Source of the DNA: Candidatus Desantisbacteria bacterium CG1_02_38_46
Lineage (GTDB): Bacteria > Desantisbacteria > UBA1551 > UBA1559
Direction of reading: 5' to 3'
Length of the DNA: 15,051 nt
NCBI GenBank assembly: GCA_001871015.1
Contig: MNUO01000039.1
Location: 1 to 15,051 of the forward strand
The translations under genes were made by a program, and so were the position numbers. Every line of letters begins with the position of its first letter. The stretch's first letter is position 1. Shown piece after piece: positions 3,184 through 11,680 of this stretch. The notes beneath the pieces were generated by a model that did not search any database, was not told the origin of the DNA, and worked only from the letters and a program-made list of their open reading frames with translations.

Positions 3184-3237
3184 GAAAAATCGTAAAAATT
3201 TGAAGGTTTTTAACATAAATGTAGTGGCCGAAAGTAG

Positions 3238-3294
3238 GCACTCTGGAAGTGCAGAGTTTACTCTGCAGAAAAGTCGAGGCAGAGTTTACTCTGC
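3238..3294. repeat. Cluster of small palindromic repeats (two GCAGAGT-TT-ACTCTGC hairpins)
   Basis: Two identical 16-bp palindromes lie at 3251-3266 and 3279-3294, a period of 28 bp. The first extends to 8-bp arms (3250-3257 and 3260-3267). A further 5-bp stem (GCACT/AGTGC) at 3238-3252 overlaps the first palindrome. The cluster begins five bases after the methyltransferase stop. No T-tract follows on either strand, so it is not a normal intrinsic terminator. The ~28-bp period and a GTAGTGG word at 3221-3227 recall the three-hairpin element at 8971-9055. Confidence 0.75.
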
Positions 3295-3298
3295 TGGG

Positions 3299-4111
3299 CT
3301 ATGATTGCATTTGGAATAAGTAAATCATATACTTTCGGTGCTTGGTAAAGGTTTGAGCGTCCACAAGGCTTTTTTGCAAGGTTTTTTTGAGGGGTTTTCT
3401 AAACAAGAAACGGGTGATTTTGTAGAAAAATGGAAGGTAAATTCCCAGACTATGCGCAATAATTTTGAAACTGGGGATGAGATAATCATTGAAAAGGGAA
3501 ACCATAAAGTCCAGCGTTGGTAAAATTTTAATTGTAATATCTTCAGATTTGATGATAACAAATCCGTTTGACTCTGCTTCTTTTAGATAGCCCTGATGAG
3601 GGTGGCCAGATATTTGCAGATTACCGTCATCCACATCATCTATCTTAAAAAAATCAGATACTAAAAGATAGCCTTTATCCTTTAAAATTTCACGACATTT
3701 TTTAAATCCCTTTTTAAGGTCTATGTACTGCGCACTTTCAGACATTAAAATTAAATCAAATTTGCGCTCAGTTTTGAAATCTTCAAATTTACTCAAGAAA
3801 AAAGGAATTTCTCCTTTTGTATTTTCCTTGAAAACTTTTTCCTGGTAAGGGTCAGGAGAAAGGGATGTTACTTCATAACCATTTTCTTTCAAGCGTATGG
3901 CATTGCCTCCAACTCCGCAGCCGACATCAAGGATTGTTTTTACACCATCAGGAATAAAACTGATTAAATGATTGATATACCTATCCTGGGCAGTGCGGAG
4001 ATTTTTCATATTCAATTCTTCATTTTCTTCCCAGCAACCGAAATGAAGTTGCTTTGATTTAGTAACTTCAGTATAGTACTTGAGCAAAAGGTTGGGTTTT
4101 TGTTTTGACAA
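3299..4111 (-). CDS. Class I SAM-dependent methyltransferase
   Basis: A 270-aa Rossmann-fold methyltransferase. Motif I is ILDVGCGVGG (60-69), an acidic/SLSPD strand follows near 83-88, then DLILMSESAQYI (119-130) and LLVSDFF (149-155). It resembles the small-molecule methyltransferases that carry an N-terminal LHFGCWEE segment and a methyltransferase-11-like core, but the substrate cannot be named. The start is TTG at 4111: an AAGGAGG ribosome site sits four bases upstream, and the reading frame offers nothing better. It stands alone between the dead toxin fragment and the palindromic repeat cluster, with no evident operon partner. Confidence 0.85.
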   Translation of the reverse strand: MSKQKPNLLLKYYTEVTKSKQLHFGCWEENEELNMKNLRTAQDRYINHLISFIPDGVKTILDVGCGVGGNAIRLKENGYEVTSLSPDPYQEKVFKENTKGEIPFFLSKFEDFKTERKFDLILMSESAQYIDLKKGFKKCREILKDKGYLLVSDFFKIDDVDDGNLQISGHPHQGYLKEAESNGFVIIKSEDITIKILPTLDFMVSLFNDYLIPSFKIIAHSLGIYLPFFYKITRFLFRKPLKKTLQKSLVDAQTFTKHRKYMIYLFQMQS

Positions 4112-4153: not shown

Positions 4154-4474
4154 TCAGGGTTTTCCTAAAATATCATGTGTGCCGATTCTTCGTAAAAGGA
4201 TTGTATCATTTACTATCTGGAAAGGGAAACGGTAATTCATGGTTACACTACCTTCCCAAATTTTTCACTTTGTTCCTTCTACTTTTTTAACACGAAGAGA
4301 AGGATTTACAAGGGAGGGGGTGTTTTTTCAATTATAACTTTATAGAACAGGGGGGGGTGATTTTTCAATTATAATTTCCAACAGAAAAGATAATTGCTTG
4401 CTTGTTTGTTTTTGAATGTGATTTGTGATGTCCTCATAATCCTTTATAAAGGGTTTGGTAAAAAGTAGTTTCAT
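4154..4474 (-). pseudogene. Broken RelE/YafQ-family toxin gene
   Basis: From ATG 4474 the frame reads MKLLFTKPFIKDYEDI and on for 44 codons to a TAA at 4342-4340, which matches the N-terminus of RelE-type toxins. Further on, in another frame, come NPSLRVKKVEGTK, an in-frame TGA (4267-4265), then KIWEGSVTMNYRFPFQ and ILLRRIGTHDILGKP ending at 4154, which is the family's C-terminal half. Between the halves a ~28-bp segment is tandemly repeated (4312-4340 and 4350-4377), which shifts the frame. One frameshifting duplication plus one nonsense codon make it dead. It starts 10 bp after the stop of the antitoxin fragment, the usual antitoxin-toxin order. Confidence 0.75.
4312..4377. repeat. Imperfect ~28-bp tandem duplication inside the dead toxin gene
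   Basis: Both copies carry a G-rich tract, TG, a T-tract and CAATTATAA; they start 38 bp apart. The second has an eight-base-plus G run. The duplicated piece encodes the middle of the toxin (IIIEK-PPP) twice, so it looks like a slippage or recombination scar rather than a set of regulatory sites. Confidence 0.65.
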
Positions 4475-4484
4475 CTTATTTCGC

Positions 4485-4709
4485 TTATTTCTTTAATGCC
4501 TTAATGGCATCTTCCACATTGTCAAAAGGCCCGACTACATCCCCTCTAATAATGGCTTCGTCAGCTTCTCTCTCCATCTTTTGCCATTTTTCAGACCAAA
4601 ACCATGCCTGATCCCTCGGGATTGTTTTTACAGGTTTAAGAATTATCATATCATCCTTGACAATGGCTTCCAGTAAATCTCCGGGCTCGCAGTGCGCTTC
4701 TTTATTTAC
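4485..4709 (-). pseudogene. 5'-truncated AbrB/MazE (SpoVT-like) antitoxin gene
   Basis: 74 codons read EAHCEPGDLLEAIVKDD, IILKPVK, DQAWFWSEKWQKMEREADEA and PFDNVEDAIKALKK, then TAA. That is the C-terminal three quarters of AbrB/MazE-type antitoxins with the DQAWFW...EREADE tail. The first ~25 residues, the beta-hairpin that binds DNA, are missing: the frame upstream reaches only the edge of the neighbouring cassette and a TAG at 4730-4728 with no start codon. The break coincides with the right-hand cassette repeat. With the broken toxin behind it, this is a dead type II module. The family call is strong; the cause of the truncation is inferred. Confidence 0.75.
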
Positions 4710-4748
4710 ACTACGTTTTTGTATTATCTAAATTTTGTAGTATAAAAG
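4701..4748. repeat. Right boundary repeat of the nucleotidyltransferase cassette
   Basis: This is the partner of 5716-5765. It contains a degenerate inverted repeat (TACACTAC at 4707-4714, GTAGTATA at 4737-4744), spans the end of the nucleotidyltransferase gene, and stops where antitoxin homology begins. Confidence 0.5.
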
Positions 4749-5409
4749 ATAATTTATCAATTAAATCATTTAAAAGTGGGAAGAGCAATTTTGCATCTTC
4801 AAGACTCTTTTTTATTCGAATCTTCCACTTCTTTGGGAATGTTGAATACAATTTGTCAATTTCTTCCAGTTTTAACACTTCACTCACATAAAGTGCCTGC
4901 TCCATATCTTTTATCTTCTTGTCCTTTTTCATTCTTCGCTGAGATATTAAAAGTTTATGCAAACAAAAGGCAGCTGGATTTGGAATAGAGATTGCAACTC
5001 CTTCATCTTCCACCGTGATAGGTTCATCGAGAATGATATCGAGAAACCTTAATGGAATTGCTCTTATGGAAAGTTCTCTTATTGATATGGCTTTATCTGT
5101 ACCCCGACCTCTCTCTGGGACCAGAAATTCGATTTTTAGTTCTGGATTCCATAGATATATAGAACCATCCGCTTTAAAAGAATGGTGAAAACCAAGAGGC
5201 TCAAAAATATCCACCAAAGATACCTTCTTCTTACCTCTGTACGGCGTTTTAATCAATAAGTCTATATCCTGGGTTTTGAACGGATATTTTCTCACTCCAA
5301 AATATTTCTGATACAGAAAAAAACACCAGCTACCTATTAGAATAATCCCTTCTTTCCATAAGTTATTATCATCAATAATTTTAAGCACTTTTTTTACTGG
5401 TTCCAACAT
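4711..5409 (-). CDS. Nucleotidyltransferase-fold protein, GSU2403/NTP_transf_8-like
   Basis: A 232-aa protein of the DNA polymerase beta/MNT nucleotidyltransferase superfamily. The glycine-serine motif is IILIGSWCFFLY (GS at 26-27), the metal-binding pair is in KTQDIDLL (D48, D50), and a third acidic residue is likely E94 in LKIEFLVPE. The middle and C-terminus are helical, as in stand-alone nucleotidyltransferases paired with small partners. Such pairs often act as toxin-antitoxin or defence modules, but the target here is unknown. I chose ATG 5409 over the longer frame (5433) because GAGAGG sits seven bases before it. It overlaps the upstream DUF6788-like gene by 29 bp, so the two are probably translated together. 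Its 3' end lies in the right-hand cassette repeat. Confidence 0.75.
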   Translation of the reverse strand: MLEPVKKVLKIIDDNNLWKEGIILIGSWCFFLYQKYFGVRKYPFKTQDIDLLIKTPYRGKKKVSLVDIFEPLGFHHSFKADGSIYLWNPELKIEFLVPERGRGTDKAISIRELSIRAIPLRFLDIILDEPITVEDEGVAISIPNPAAFCLHKLLISQRRMKKDKKIKDMEQALYVSEVLKLEEIDKLYSTFPKKWKIRIKKSLEDAKLLFPLLNDLIDKLSFILQNLDNTKT

Positions 5410-5707
5410 TTCTTTTCCTCTCAGACCTTTCAAGTATTTTTAATGCCTGTTTTACCTGCTTCAACTGTTCAATCATTAACCTACGTTCTTTAAGACTCTT
5501 CTCAATTTTTGAGGGTTTTTCTTTCCCCAAATATTTATGTATAACTTTTTCTCCTTTTCTAAACTGTAGATAATAATAAACCTTGCCATATATATTCCTT
5601 TTCTTGATACTTCCTTTCGGTAGCAGTTTAATTCTATTGTTCAATTCTTTATGAATATTTCTATAATATTCTTTGCTTTCTTTTAGGATACCAGATAATA
5701 CTTTCAT
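5381..5707 (-). CDS. Small basic helical protein, DUF6788-like, partner of the nucleotidyltransferase
   Basis: A 108-aa, strongly basic protein. The N-terminal ~28 residues are helical. A compact beta segment LPKGSIKKRNIYGKVYYYL...KVIHKYLGKEK (29-64) follows, which matches the DUF6788-type pattern of small proteins, and the C-terminal ~40 residues are a Lys/Glu/Leu-rich coiled coil. ATG 5707 is preferred over ATG 5719 because GGAG lies six bases upstream of it, inside the longer frame's first codons. The gene is first in a two-gene unit overlapping the nucleotidyltransferase and follows a consensus promoter and an inverted repeat. Function is unknown; a partner, antitoxin or DNA-binding role is only inferred from position and charge. 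Confidence 0.65.
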   Translation of the reverse strand: MKVLSGILKESKEYYRNIHKELNNRIKLLPKGSIKKRNIYGKVYYYLQFRKGEKVIHKYLGKEKPSKIEKSLKERRLMIEQLKQVKQALKILERSERKRNVGTSKKSA

Positions 5708-5715
5708 CTCGTTCT

Positions 5716-5765
5716 CCATTTATACACTACAATTGTATAATTCTGTCTATTTTGTAGTGTAAAGG
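5716..5765. repeat. Left boundary repeat of the nucleotidyltransferase cassette
   Basis: About 50 bp that align, with gaps of two bases, to 4701-4748. Shared landmarks in order on the plus strand are ATTTA, CACTAC, GTAT-A, TCTA, TTTTGTAGT and TAAA. The two copies lie in the same orientation, about 1 kb apart. Confidence 0.5.
5723..5761. promoter_or_regulatory. Inverted repeat in the leader of the nucleotidyltransferase cassette (possible operator)
   Basis: Perfect 10-bp arms TACACTACAA (5723-5732) and TTGTAGTGTA (5752-5761) enclose 19 bases. The element lies between the predicted transcription start (about 5768) and the start codon, so it could be an autoregulatory operator or an RNA hairpin that hides the ribosome site. 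A degenerate version recurs at the other end of the cassette. Confidence 0.55.
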
Positions 5766-7421: not shown

Positions 7422-8318
7422 TCAAAAACTGAAGTTCATCTTGATGCCAAGTGGATTGTTTGCTGGGTCTATGAGGAAGAGGGTAGTGCCAGCTGCAAAA
7501 TTAAACCAGAAATGGGCAGCAATAGGTTTTTCAAGCCGATAACCCTCTTTTTGAAATAACCAGCCCAGGTATAATCCTGATAAGGTCGCAATTCCACCAT
7601 ATGCCCAGGATTTTCCATCTCCCCAGTTCGTCACATGCCCTAACCCAAATATTCCGGAGGAAACAAATAATCCAGCAGTTCTACCCATTGTTTCTTCGCA
7701 CTCCACCTGCAATAATCCCCGGTAGGCACATTCCTCGCTTACTGCTGAATCAAAACTTAAGGTTAGCCACATTCCTTCGTAAACTGCAGTGCCGCATTCT
7801 CTGTCAAACCCGGTGTTCATAATATTTATTGTGGAAATTCTATCGAAACCTTTCCTTTGAGGATTCAAATATCCTTCAGTAGCATTTATGGCTATTCCAG
7901 CAAGGAAAAATCCGTAGACATAAGGACTTTTGATATTTTCCCATCTGAAAGGTGCAAGGATTAATTTATGCAGAGGGGTTTTGTCAATAGGGGTAGTATA
8001 CCCTTCATTATTATTAAGAATGCGAGCCTCACGATATGATGTGAAAATGTTCAGCTCATGGATTTTAAGGGTATTTATATAGAAGAAATTCCATTCTCCT
8101 GAAGCAAGAGCATTCTCAAGACTTTTTCCTGTGATGAATAGAAGGCTCTCAGCCATTAGATATATGTTACCTGCAGTAGGTTGGCCAAGGTAGAAATGTC
8201 CACCGCCAGGTAATAGTATTGACCACAACAAGGTATTTGTAATACTTTTTTCTTCACTCTGTGCCAGTCCTGTGATTGCCAGCAATATGATTATAGTAAT
8301 TACCTTTCGTCTAATCAT
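7422..8318 (-). CDS. CPBP-family intramembrane metalloprotease with N-terminal signal
   Basis: A 298-aa membrane protein. It opens with a signal-like segment (MIRRKVITIIILLAITGLAQS). LLPGGGHFYLG (35-45) then resembles the small membrane modules of DUF5683/TM2-type proteins. The C-terminal half has the CPBP (Abi/Rce1-like) catalytic motifs: EECAYR (195-200), FGLGH (224-228) and HFWFN (269-273), which supply the glutamate, the histidines and the asparagine. The start at ATG 8318 is preferred to the longer frame (8393) because it overlaps the hydrolase stop as ATGATTAG with GAGCTGG just upstream and begins with a clear signal sequence. The 8-bp overlap suggests translational coupling to the hydrolase. 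The substrate is unknown. Confidence 0.82.
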   Translation of the reverse strand: MIRRKVITIIILLAITGLAQSEEKSITNTLLWSILLPGGGHFYLGQPTAGNIYLMAESLLFITGKSLENALASGEWNFFYINTLKIHELNIFTSYREARILNNNEGYTTPIDKTPLHKLILAPFRWENIKSPYVYGFFLAGIAINATEGYLNPQRKGFDRISTINIMNTGFDRECGTAVYEGMWLTLSFDSAVSEECAYRGLLQVECEETMGRTAGLFVSSGIFGLGHVTNWGDGKSWAYGGIATLSGLYLGWLFQKEGYRLEKPIAAHFWFNFAAGTTLFLIDPANNPLGIKMNFSF

Positions 8319-9231
8319 CCAGCTCTTTCCCGAACCAATCCATAACTGCAGAGTAAAATTCCTTTGTTTTATCCCAATACAGGGCTTCTGCATGCTCAGC
8401 GCTATTTAAGATTAAAATTTTTTTAGGTTCATTTGCTAGATTGTAAAGAATTTGTGATTGCTTTGATTCAATGACCCAATCATTTTTACCATGAATGAAA
8501 AGAACAGGACAGTTAATTTTGTCCACAACTGAAAGCGGAGAAGCTACTTTAATGGGTAGTCCAAGCCTTGCACCCATTGGCAGGACTAATACTTTGCCAA
8601 TTGCCTGAATAGCAACTGAATTAGTGCACAGAAGTCCTCCGCCACCGCTCTTGACTTTATCCGGGCTTGAGAGCATACTCACAAGGACCATAGCATCTAA
8701 AGCAGGGCTTCTCGCTTCCTCTCCGATAGAGGCAATTCCTCCAGCAGAGAATCCTATTAGTCCTATTTTCTCGTACCCAAGCCATTTTGCATAATCTATT
8801 GCTATCCGAATATCTGTTCTTTCTTTGGTGCCGCCAGTCCATTCTCCGCTGCTTTCGCCATGTCCACGCATATCAATTGTAATAACGTCATACTTTGAGG
8901 AAATATCCTTTGCCAGAGCCAAAATTTGGGGATATTTGCGAAAACAACAAATGCCATGGACGATGATAATTACAGCAGACCTGAAGGTCTGCGTTACGGT
9001 CCGCCGAGGCGGACCACTACGGTTCGCTACAGCAGGGCAATCCCTGCCACTACGGATATGGGTACCAACGATAGTAACACCATCTTCAGAAGAAATTGTA
9101 AACTTATTAAAATCAAGATTTTTATAGGCACTTAGCTCAGGGTCTCCTGCGACCTGTGAGATAATTAAACCGGTACCCAAAAAAAAGTTGGCGATTCCCC
9201 TTACAATATAGTTGTTCACTAACCAACCCAT
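8311..9231 (-). CDS. Membrane-anchored alpha/beta hydrolase with an in-frame palindromic-repeat insertion
   Basis: A 306-aa alpha/beta hydrolase with an N-terminal hydrophobic anchor. The oxyanion HG is in IIIVHGIC (92-93), the nucleophile is in GFSAGG (S162), the acid is D251 in HGKNDWV, and the histidine is H280 in NSAEHAEAL, so the triad is complete. Strand 2 leads into VGTHI and strand 3 starts AVIIIVHG; between them residues 60-84 are Arg/Pro-rich and unlike the family. They are encoded by three hairpin repeats (8971-9055) inserted without breaking the frame. The reaction is probably esterase- or lipase-like, substrate unknown. ATG 9231 has AGGGAG upstream. It follows the HD-GYP gene by 16 bp and overlaps the CPBP gene. 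Confidence 0.88.
   Translation of the reverse strand: MGWLVNNYIVRGIANFFLGTGLIISQVAGDPELSAYKNLDFNKFTISSEDGVTIVGTHIRSGRDCPAVANRSGPPRRTVTQTFRSAVIIIVHGICCFRKYPQILALAKDISSKYDVITIDMRGHGESSGEWTGGTKERTDIRIAIDYAKWLGYEKIGLIGFSAGGIASIGEEARSPALDAMVLVSMLSSPDKVKSGGGGLLCTNSVAIQAIGKVLVLPMGARLGLPIKVASPLSVVDKINCPVLFIHGKNDWVIESKQSQILYNLANEPKKILILNSAEHAEALYWDKTKEFYSAVMDWFGKELDD
8971..9055. repeat. Composite of three ~28-bp palindromic modules inside a coding region
   Basis: Three hairpins stand in a row: GCAGACCT-GA-AGGTCTGC (8975-8992), GGTCCGCC-GA-GGCGGACC (8998-9015) and GCAGGG-CAAT-CCCTGC (9032-9047). Each is followed on the plus strand by TTACGG or CTACGG. The outer two start with TACAGCAG (8971-8978 and 9028-9035), giving an A-B-A' layout of units 29, 28 and 28 bp long. 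The whole block is read through in frame by the hydrolase gene. The design recalls protein-inserted palindromic elements described in Rickettsia, but the sequence is different. Confidence 0.85.
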
Positions 9232-9247
9232 AATAACTCCCTACTAT

Positions 9248-11680
9248 TTAAACTATTTTGAGGAATGTTTCAACTATCTCAGGGTCAAATTGACTGGAAT
9301 TACATTTCCTCAATTCTTCCATTGCCCCTTCTTTTGTAAATGCTTTTCTATAGGGCCGTTCTGAGACCATTGCATCAAAAGCATCTGCAACAGATAGTAT
9401 GCGAGCCCCGATGGGAATTTTTTCGTCAATTAATCCTTTTGGATAACCTTTGCCATTATACCATTCATGATGGTGCCTGATAATTGAAAGTATTTCCTCG
9501 GATAGCCCGATTGGTTTGATGATTTTGACGCTTGTTTCTGGATGTTTTTTGATTTCATTGTATTCTGAATCAGTCAATTTCCCCGGTTTAAGCAGTATAG
9601 TTTCTTTTATGCCAATTTTCCCTATATCGTGAAGCATTGCTGCGGTAGCTATATTTTCAATCTCAGATTGCGAAAGGTTTAATTCGGTCGCTATTTTTAT
9701 TGCATAGTCACAAACCCTGCTAACATGTCCTCTGGTATAACGGTCTTTCGCATCCAGTGCCTCGGCAAGTGATTGGATTGTTCGCAAATATGACTGACGC
9801 AGGGCCGTATAAAGGCGCGCATTTTCAACAATCACAGAGGCCTCTCCGCATATACCCATTAACATCTCAAGGTCATAAAAAGTGAAAGCCCTTTTCGTCT
9901 CCTTATTATTTACATTCACGACACCAATAACTTTTCCTTTCAACATAAGAGGAACGCTTACCAGAGATCTGGTATAATACTTTTCATGACTGCGTTTTGC
10001 AAATCTCGGGTCCGACTCGATATCATTGACAAGCGCAGGTTGAGCATGTTGAGCAACCCACCCTGAAATTTTCTCCCCAATTTTCAGACTCGTATTTTTT
10101 GCAACTTCCTCATCCAGTCCGCAAGATGCTTTAATGACCAATCTCTCTGTTTCCTCGTCAAGGAGCAATATGGAAACTATTTCTGCGCGCATCGTACTTT
10201 TTATATTGTTCAGAAGAGTTTTTGCTACTGTATCAAGTTCAAGCGAGGAACCCACATCCTGACCTATTTTGCACATTGTTAACAATTGCTCAGTCCTTTT
10301 TTCAAGAGAATGATAGGTTATGGCATTGTGAATTGCAATTGCGGATTGTGCTCCGAGGCTTGATAGCAATTCTATATCATCCTTTTTGTATATCTCGCCC
10401 GAAATTTTCTTGCCCAGGTTAAGCAATCCAACCATCTGATTTCCAACAATCAGAGGAATACAGATTTCAGATTCAAGTTCTCGAAATCTCTGCAAACCCA
10501 CTTCTTTCATCTTTGAGTACCAGGGGTCCATTCCTAACATTTCTTTTTCCACCACTCCACCTTGAGAGAATAGCCAGGTCACGAATGGGTCATCCTTACT
10601 GAGTCGAACTTCGGGAGAACTTATTCCCTTCTGATTTTTAACAAAGTATTCTTGCTTTCCATCATCAAGTATCATTATAGAAGCCTTATTTATGCGTACT
10701 GTGTCTGCAATTATATTCACTATCATAGTCAGCAGTTCTTCTAAGTCCATCAGCACGTTCAGACTTTTAGAAAATGCATTCAGGGTTTCCCTGTACTTAT
10801 ATTTATCCCTGTAAAACACACGGTCTATCAGCTTCCAGATTTTATTCTTAATGCCCATGAAGATAAACAGAAATACTAATAGTAACCCTCCTGTGAGAAT
10901 GGGATTCTCAAACTTTTTGTGAAACATTCTGTGGATTAGAGTAAACACACCTGTATAAGATGCAAGAATCAGGAATGAAATCGCCATGTATCCTAATGTC
11001 CGATAAGTGAAAGTTTCGATGTCCAGAAGACGATATTTCACAATTGCGTAACCGCTGATGAGGATGAATGCTATTACAAATGTGAAACCAAATGGATAAA
11101 ATTCCACTCCATAATCAGCAAGGAAATCAATTGCACCAAAAGAGGCTATCAATATTCCAAAGAACATATACTTTATCCTGACATGTCTGAGCGAACCAAT
11201 TTCTGCCTTTTTGTATTCCTTATAAAGATTATAAATTGATATTAAAATCATGGCCATAAAGAAAATGAGGAATAAAGGATGGATTAACCCTGCCTTTGTA
11301 TAATACCCAAAGAAATAATGTCGCACTCCGCTGATAAAATAATTGGTCCTGCTTAAAAAGAGGAAAATTATTACAATGATATAACTCATGAGAATAAATT
11401 TCTTTTGATTTTTTAATCCGAGGAATGTAACAGTAAAATGATAAATGGTTACAGGGATAAATATTACCCCTAAATACGCGTTTTTATCCCAGAACAATGC
11501 CAATTTTTCATCGGGGCTTAAATAAGTCATGGATATGAAAAATAGCCAGAGGAAGGTAGCGAAAGTCATAAGGGAAAAAGTTATGTTTACTGAGGATTTT
11601 ATGTTCTGTCGTAAAACAAAAATCCCGTAGGCAAGAATCAATATCGATGTAACCAAAGGCGGAATTGCATATGTATTCAT
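9248..11680 (-). CDS. Membrane GAF-GAF-HD-GYP cyclic-di-GMP phosphodiesterase
   Basis: An 810-aa sensor-effector. Residues 1-215 hold about seven membrane helices resembling the 7TM input region of some histidine kinases, and two more helices lie near 225-275. Two GAF domains follow (about 310-450 and 480-620), then HD-GYP (about 630-810). The HD-GYP signature is complete: H652, HDIGKIG (H684, D685), H713, HHHEWYNGKGYP (736-747, GYP at 745-747) and D766. HD-GYP enzymes hydrolyse c-di-GMP to pGpG or GMP. ATG 11680 overlaps the DUF4416 stop as ATGA, with GGAGGAG five bases before it, so it is translationally coupled. The signal sensed is unknown. Its likely opponent, a diguanylate cyclase, is encoded in the same array. 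Confidence 0.92.
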   Translation of the reverse strand: MNTYAIPPLVTSILILAYGIFVLRQNIKSSVNITFSLMTFATFLWLFFISMTYLSPDEKLALFWDKNAYLGVIFIPVTIYHFTVTFLGLKNQKKFILMSYIIVIIFLFLSRTNYFISGVRHYFFGYYTKAGLIHPLFLIFFMAMILISIYNLYKEYKKAEIGSLRHVRIKYMFFGILIASFGAIDFLADYGVEFYPFGFTFVIAFILISGYAIVKYRLLDIETFTYRTLGYMAISFLILASYTGVFTLIHRMFHKKFENPILTGGLLLVFLFIFMGIKNKIWKLIDRVFYRDKYKYRETLNAFSKSLNVLMDLEELLTMIVNIIADTVRINKASIMILDDGKQEYFVKNQKGISSPEVRLSKDDPFVTWLFSQGGVVEKEMLGMDPWYSKMKEVGLQRFRELESEICIPLIVGNQMVGLLNLGKKISGEIYKKDDIELLSSLGAQSAIAIHNAITYHSLEKRTEQLLTMCKIGQDVGSSLELDTVAKTLLNNIKSTMRAEIVSILLLDEETERLVIKASCGLDEEVAKNTSLKIGEKISGWVAQHAQPALVNDIESDPRFAKRSHEKYYTRSLVSVPLMLKGKVIGVVNVNNKETKRAFTFYDLEMLMGICGEASVIVENARLYTALRQSYLRTIQSLAEALDAKDRYTRGHVSRVCDYAIKIATELNLSQSEIENIATAAMLHDIGKIGIKETILLKPGKLTDSEYNEIKKHPETSVKIIKPIGLSEEILSIIRHHHEWYNGKGYPKGLIDEKIPIGARILSVADAFDAMVSERPYRKAFTKEGAMEELRKCNSSQFDPEIVETFLKIV

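Follow-up and report, generated by a model that had tools for sequence, protein, structure and literature searches.

REP-type tagged hairpins lie in frame in a hydrolase gene of an uncultured Desantisbacteria genome

A block of three hairpins in an alpha/beta hydrolase gene of Candidatus Desantisbacteria bacterium CG1_02_38_46 is very probably a head-to-tail trio of REPs, each made of a GTAG or GTAA tag and a hairpin, which inserted at the loop that links two core strands of the enzyme, oriented along the coding strand and leaving the frame open, presumably through movement by RAYT. REPs are GTAG-tagged palindromes mobilised by RAYT (TnpA-REP) transposases and are usually called extragenic. 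The window analysed, of 15,051 nucleotides, is the whole of contig C103 of a 1.73-Mb genome (133 contigs, 88% complete). The units were classified as REPs because of their tag, hairpin, copy number and placement and because of the RAYT flanking seen in genome G001, which belongs to the same order and is the closest relative compared. This REP/RAYT system, absent from the sequence-only reading, explains the units better than the single new modular element proposed there, since the units are separate tagged REPs that occur singly, paired and in arrays.

The hydrolase gene (306 residues; positions 8311..9231, minus strand; Pfam matches, Hydrolase_4 and Peptidase_S15) reads uninterrupted through the hairpin block. 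Perfect hairpins are found at positions 8975-8992 and 8998-9015 (stems of 8 bp) and 9032-9047 (stem of 6 bp). From 9053 to 8975, the minus strand reads GTAGTG-GCAGGGATTGCCCTGC, an 11-nt spacer, GTAGT-GGTCCGCCTCGGCGGACC and GTAAC-GCAGACCTTCAGGTCTGC, the three hairpins being arranged head to tail on the coding strand. Unit 1 (9032..9053, minus strand) is composed of GTAGTG and GCAGGG-ATTG-CCCTGC and encodes RSGRDCPA. The spacer (9021..9031, minus strand) separates it from unit 2 (8998..9020, minus strand), in which GTAGT precedes GGTCCGCC-TC-GGCGGACC and the encoded peptide is RSGPPRRT. Unit 3 (8975..8997, minus strand; GTAAC plus GCAGACCT-TC-AGGTCTGC; VTQTFRSA) directly adjoins unit 2. Thus, GTAG lies 5′ of the hairpin in units 1 and 2 and GTAA-C in unit 3. 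None of 200 dinucleotide shuffles of the window had three hairpins in 100 bp, the maximum being two (6 shuffles). Together, the hairpin coordinates, the shuffles and the translation of the ORF bear out the earlier claim that three palindromes lie in frame in a hydrolase gene. The A-B-A′ build ascribed to them did not hold, the stems (GCAGACC, GGTCCGCC and GCAGGG) all being different, and the T/CTACGG word described as their end is present as the reverse complement of the 5′ tag, CCGTAG(TG) or CCGTAA(C). A search of Rfam gave no real match and one chance hit. Two more family members, GTAG-GC-ACTCTGGAAGTGCAGAGT and a GCAGAGTTTACTCTGC hairpin with a degenerate tag, are intergenic (3234..3294, plus strand) and lie just outside the minus-strand ORF 3299-4111, past its 3′ end. 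The window also contains a 48-nt direct repeat (98% identical), each copy of which (299-346 and 1670-1717) lies at the 3′ end of an ATPase-like ORF, and two 28-nt direct repeats, 89% alike and starting 37 nt apart, between ORFs (4313-4377).

The block occupies codons 60 to 85 (8977..9054, minus strand; RSGRDCPAVANRSGPPRRTVTQTFRS). Alignment with two distant homologues from genome G029 revealed about 6 residues in place of the 26 from R60 to S85, so that the insert adds about 20 residues net, a figure read by eye from the flanks (GTHI ... AVIIIVHG versus GWYV ... AVVLVHG), MAFFT having misplaced the insert. The in-frame insert that the sequence-only reading had placed at residues 60 to 84 is therefore real and extends by one more residue. 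Ser162, Asp251 and His280 are common to the hydrolase and both homologues, in agreement with the intact catalytic triad already proposed. For most of the best solved relatives, the alignment begins at residue 85 or 86, in the strand ending in the HG motif. The single-sequence AlphaFold model was poor (mean pLDDT of 39), and its strands 53-56 and 85-92 fit a loop at residues 60 to 84 loosely. No relative of the hydrolase was found in the viral contigs searched. These results support a palindromic element of mobile type, in frame at a tolerated loop, and the insert probably has no function of its own in the hydrolase.

The three units belong to a genome-wide family rather than forming an isolated element. 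A search of the genome with the block returned dozens of related hairpins, and 266 units consisting of a tag and a hairpin were identified in 41 surveyed stretches (561 kb in all, about one-third of the genome, biased to contigs with matches). The 5′ tag is (C)CGTAG or CGTAA, and two kinds predominate, GTAG-TG-hairpin and GTAA-C-hairpin. A perfect hairpin followed 134 of the 309 GTAGTG words (43%) and 100 of the 270 GTAACT words, versus 0.33% for all hexamers; raw matches numbered 444 in the sequence and 42 in the reversed sequence. With up to two mismatches, GTAGTGGCAGAGTTTACTCTGC had 127 matches, and GTAACTCARRSCTTYAGSYYTGA had 104. Stems vary with pairing kept (GCAGAG, GTCGAG, GCAGAC, GCAGGG, GGTCCGCC and others), which is not independent evidence because the units were selected for pairing. 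As expected for REPs, the hairpins are short (stems in the range of 5 to 13 bp, loops of 2 to 20 nt), dispersed in high copy number and mostly intergenic, with 207 of about 259 units outside long ORFs and 52 inside in this biased sample. The hairpin word of unit 1 recurs at the end of contig C94. The stem of unit 2 had no further exact copy in the genome sequence searched and one copy at two mismatches. The word of unit 3, in which one loop base may differ, is in frame in rnhB (C105) and leuC (C3); AACGCAGACCTTYAGGTCTGC occurs three times, in the hydrolase, rnhB and leuC genes, and encodes VTQTFRSA or ITQTFRSA in each. A composite of about 90 bp, TAGCTAAGGAAATTATACCAAAAGTTATCCACAA + TCAGGACTAAAGTCCTGA + GTTACGTAAC + TCAGACCTTCAGGTCTGA + TTTTTCTTGA, contains a TATAAT-like word and recurs in many near-identical copies (L008, L010, L013, L016, L023, L025 and others). 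In a sample of 386 genomes from across the domain, 7 contained GTAGTGGCAGAGNNNNCTCTGC, and one distant genome, G087, had 30 matches. A scan of named genomes with the unit 1 word gave two matches (a Zixiibacteriota MAG and a Pseudoduganella).

Candidate mobilisers were identified with profile NF047646, which had 2 matches in the genome of the window and 11 in G001. The RAYT gene of contig C109 displays visible HUH and Tyr motifs and scored 79.9 bits in one search and 82.1 in another (cut-off, 80); the second Y1/RAYT-type gene, on C60, has a stop within the matched stretch. No units were found near either gene, which counts against the RAYT explanation. At G001:C23, both RAYT genes have GTAAC units on either side within a few hundred bases, including TCAGACCTTCAGGTCTGA, a word common in the genome of the window. 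At G001:C57, one RAYT gene lies between inverted GTAGC-TGCAGGGCTTGCCCTGCA units with a GCAGGG...CCCTGC stem, as in unit 1. A RAYT gene flanked by REPs is termed a REPtron in PMC3733652, and the gene order at both loci of G001 is, on sequence grounds, that arrangement. For biochemical work, the sister genome supplies RAYTs together with their matching REPs, among them what looks like a GTAA tag class. We infer that the units are mobile and are moved by RAYT. This single-strand transposase of the HUH/Tyr type (TnpA-REP) would recognise the single-stranded tagged hairpin and move or copy it, with the replication fork as one possible setting. Insertion would be roughly blind to genes, and selection would leave only copies that preserve the frame at loops tolerating extra residues rich in Ser, Arg and Gly. 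Separately, contig C53 carries a fragment of a true IS200-type tnpA gene with other hairpins beside it.

About 52 units are in frame in 28 ORFs of the surveyed 561 kb, a count based on open frames and filtering by eye, with six doubtful ORFs removed. The genes, which were named from our own reading of the translations, include rnhB, trmD, leuC, ispG, ispE, trpE, trpG, asd and thrC; some are essential-looking, and the units do not stop their reading. Matches in the PDB back eight of these names (leuC, trmD, pstB, rnhB, trpG, asd, ispE and ispG), and comparison with the PDB homologues revealed 47 residues versus 16 in the homologue gap for leuC, 28 versus 2 for trpG, 39 versus 6 for asd and about 76 versus 18 for ispE (net gain of about 58). 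RnhB gained 12 residues and TrmD 4, the smallest net gain, and IspG is longer than its homologues in two places, with units in the first. Most homologues thus have a shorter loop where the units lie. The ispE-like gene (L080, G000:C18, plus strand, offset 4677-5745) contains seven tandem 24-nt units translated as SRVNSATT/SRINSATT repeats. In the distant genome G337 (L114), a unit occupies about the same loop of asd as in the genome of the window (L081, G000:C63); the asd units of the two genomes differ. In-frame REPs in so many housekeeping enzymes provide a natural catalogue of protein sites that accept loops. Of the same-strand neighbouring units inside genes, 7 of 11 were spaced by a multiple of 3, versus 14 of 54 outside; this is suggestive only, because the comparison pools neighbours that differ in length and kind.

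At two sites, the unit brings no net change in length. In pstB, GTAAC-TCAAGCCTTCAGGCTTGA encodes VTQAFRLE without a gap relative to solved PstB, and in a RAYT gene of genome G116 (L113:1378-1905), GTAGTGGCAGAGCTTGCTCTGC encodes VVAELALL without a gap, by eye, relative to a related RAYT. The pstB-like gene (G000:C61, L047, offset 9270-10020, reverse strand) has PLEQQQRL at the ABC signature versus SGGQQQRL in solved PstB. The standard picture of simple insertion does not account for these two sites. A speculative reading, to which we give a small but real chance, is that some units overwrite an equal length of host sequence rather than adding to it; were this general, the spread of REPs would involve replacement of DNA through single-strand exchange or template switching, and the GTAA-C units would point to a class of RAYT that has a tag of its own. 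This lineage also makes testable the long-open question of how REPs spread, by inserting or by replacing.

The units could instead be coding elements similar to the Rickettsia RPEs, namely, palindromes selected for translatability and dispersed by a mechanism of their own, independent of RAYT. As with RPEs, the palindromes are read in frame as part of unrelated genes; many units lie within genes, and one frame is dominant, 25 of the 42 in-gene units of the GTAG type reading xSGRxxSA. However, stop codons and peptide tolerance alone can give such a frame choice, units outside long ORFs greatly outnumber those inside (207 versus 52), and the tags and the RAYT flanking match REPs, making this reading improbable. 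Still less probable is the retention of the palindromes as RNA hairpins acting in place, in translation control or mRNA decay: the block strand folds well (z = -4.4), but unrelated genes carry the units, in numbers that vary, the homologues of the hydrolase are without them, and nothing connects the site to what the gene does. Misjoining of a repeat into the gene is the least probable reading, even in a MAG of 133 contigs of which one, C94, has the same hairpin word at its end, since on either side of the block the reading frame continues and the catalytic residues are retained, and the same pattern is found in many conserved genes.

The REP reading places the block among several known systems. 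IS200/IS605 single-strand transposons have in common with it the Y1 transposase family and hairpins read as single strands; REPs are tagged single hairpins, the units here are without a gene, and the block in the window holds no transposase ORF and so is not a tnpA gene between two end hairpins. The coding palindromes of Nematomorpha mitochondria (PMC6649704) are also inverted repeats in coding sequence but are long, perfect (up to 284 bp) and organellar. Rickettsia RPE-1, -4 and -6, likened here by their description as cited in PMC3733652, are likewise palindromes translated in frame in many genes, in another lineage; there, RPE-4/6 are counted with CGTC REPs and said to have no dedicated transposase. 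In the Marinomonas REP (PMC8266576; REPtron Mb, group 3 TnpA-REP), GTAG and two unpaired bases precede a perfect palindrome with the loop TTTA, which is also the layout of the commonest unit here, GTAG-TG-GCAGAG-TTTA-CTCTGC; the Marinomonas stem is of 5 bp versus 6 to 8 bp in our units, which are known from sequence. The closest counterparts are the GTAG REPs, which according to PMC3733652 have stems of 5 to 13 bp and loops of 2 to 20 nt and are also found inside ORFs. The tag, the short perfect stem and the small loop are as in our units, and so are the high copy number, the occurrence as arrays and dimers, the presence of in-frame copies in conserved genes and the association with RAYT. In-frame REPs have been described there in Opitutus terrae and others, and this kind of REP is therefore already known. 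The units differ from that description in the GTAA-C class, in a trio mixing two tag classes and in their uncultured, isolated lineage; GTAA was not among the published tag variants in the parts of the literature read. What is new here is the lineage, the scale and wide use of genes, the GTAA(-C) tag and the blocks that mix two tag classes.
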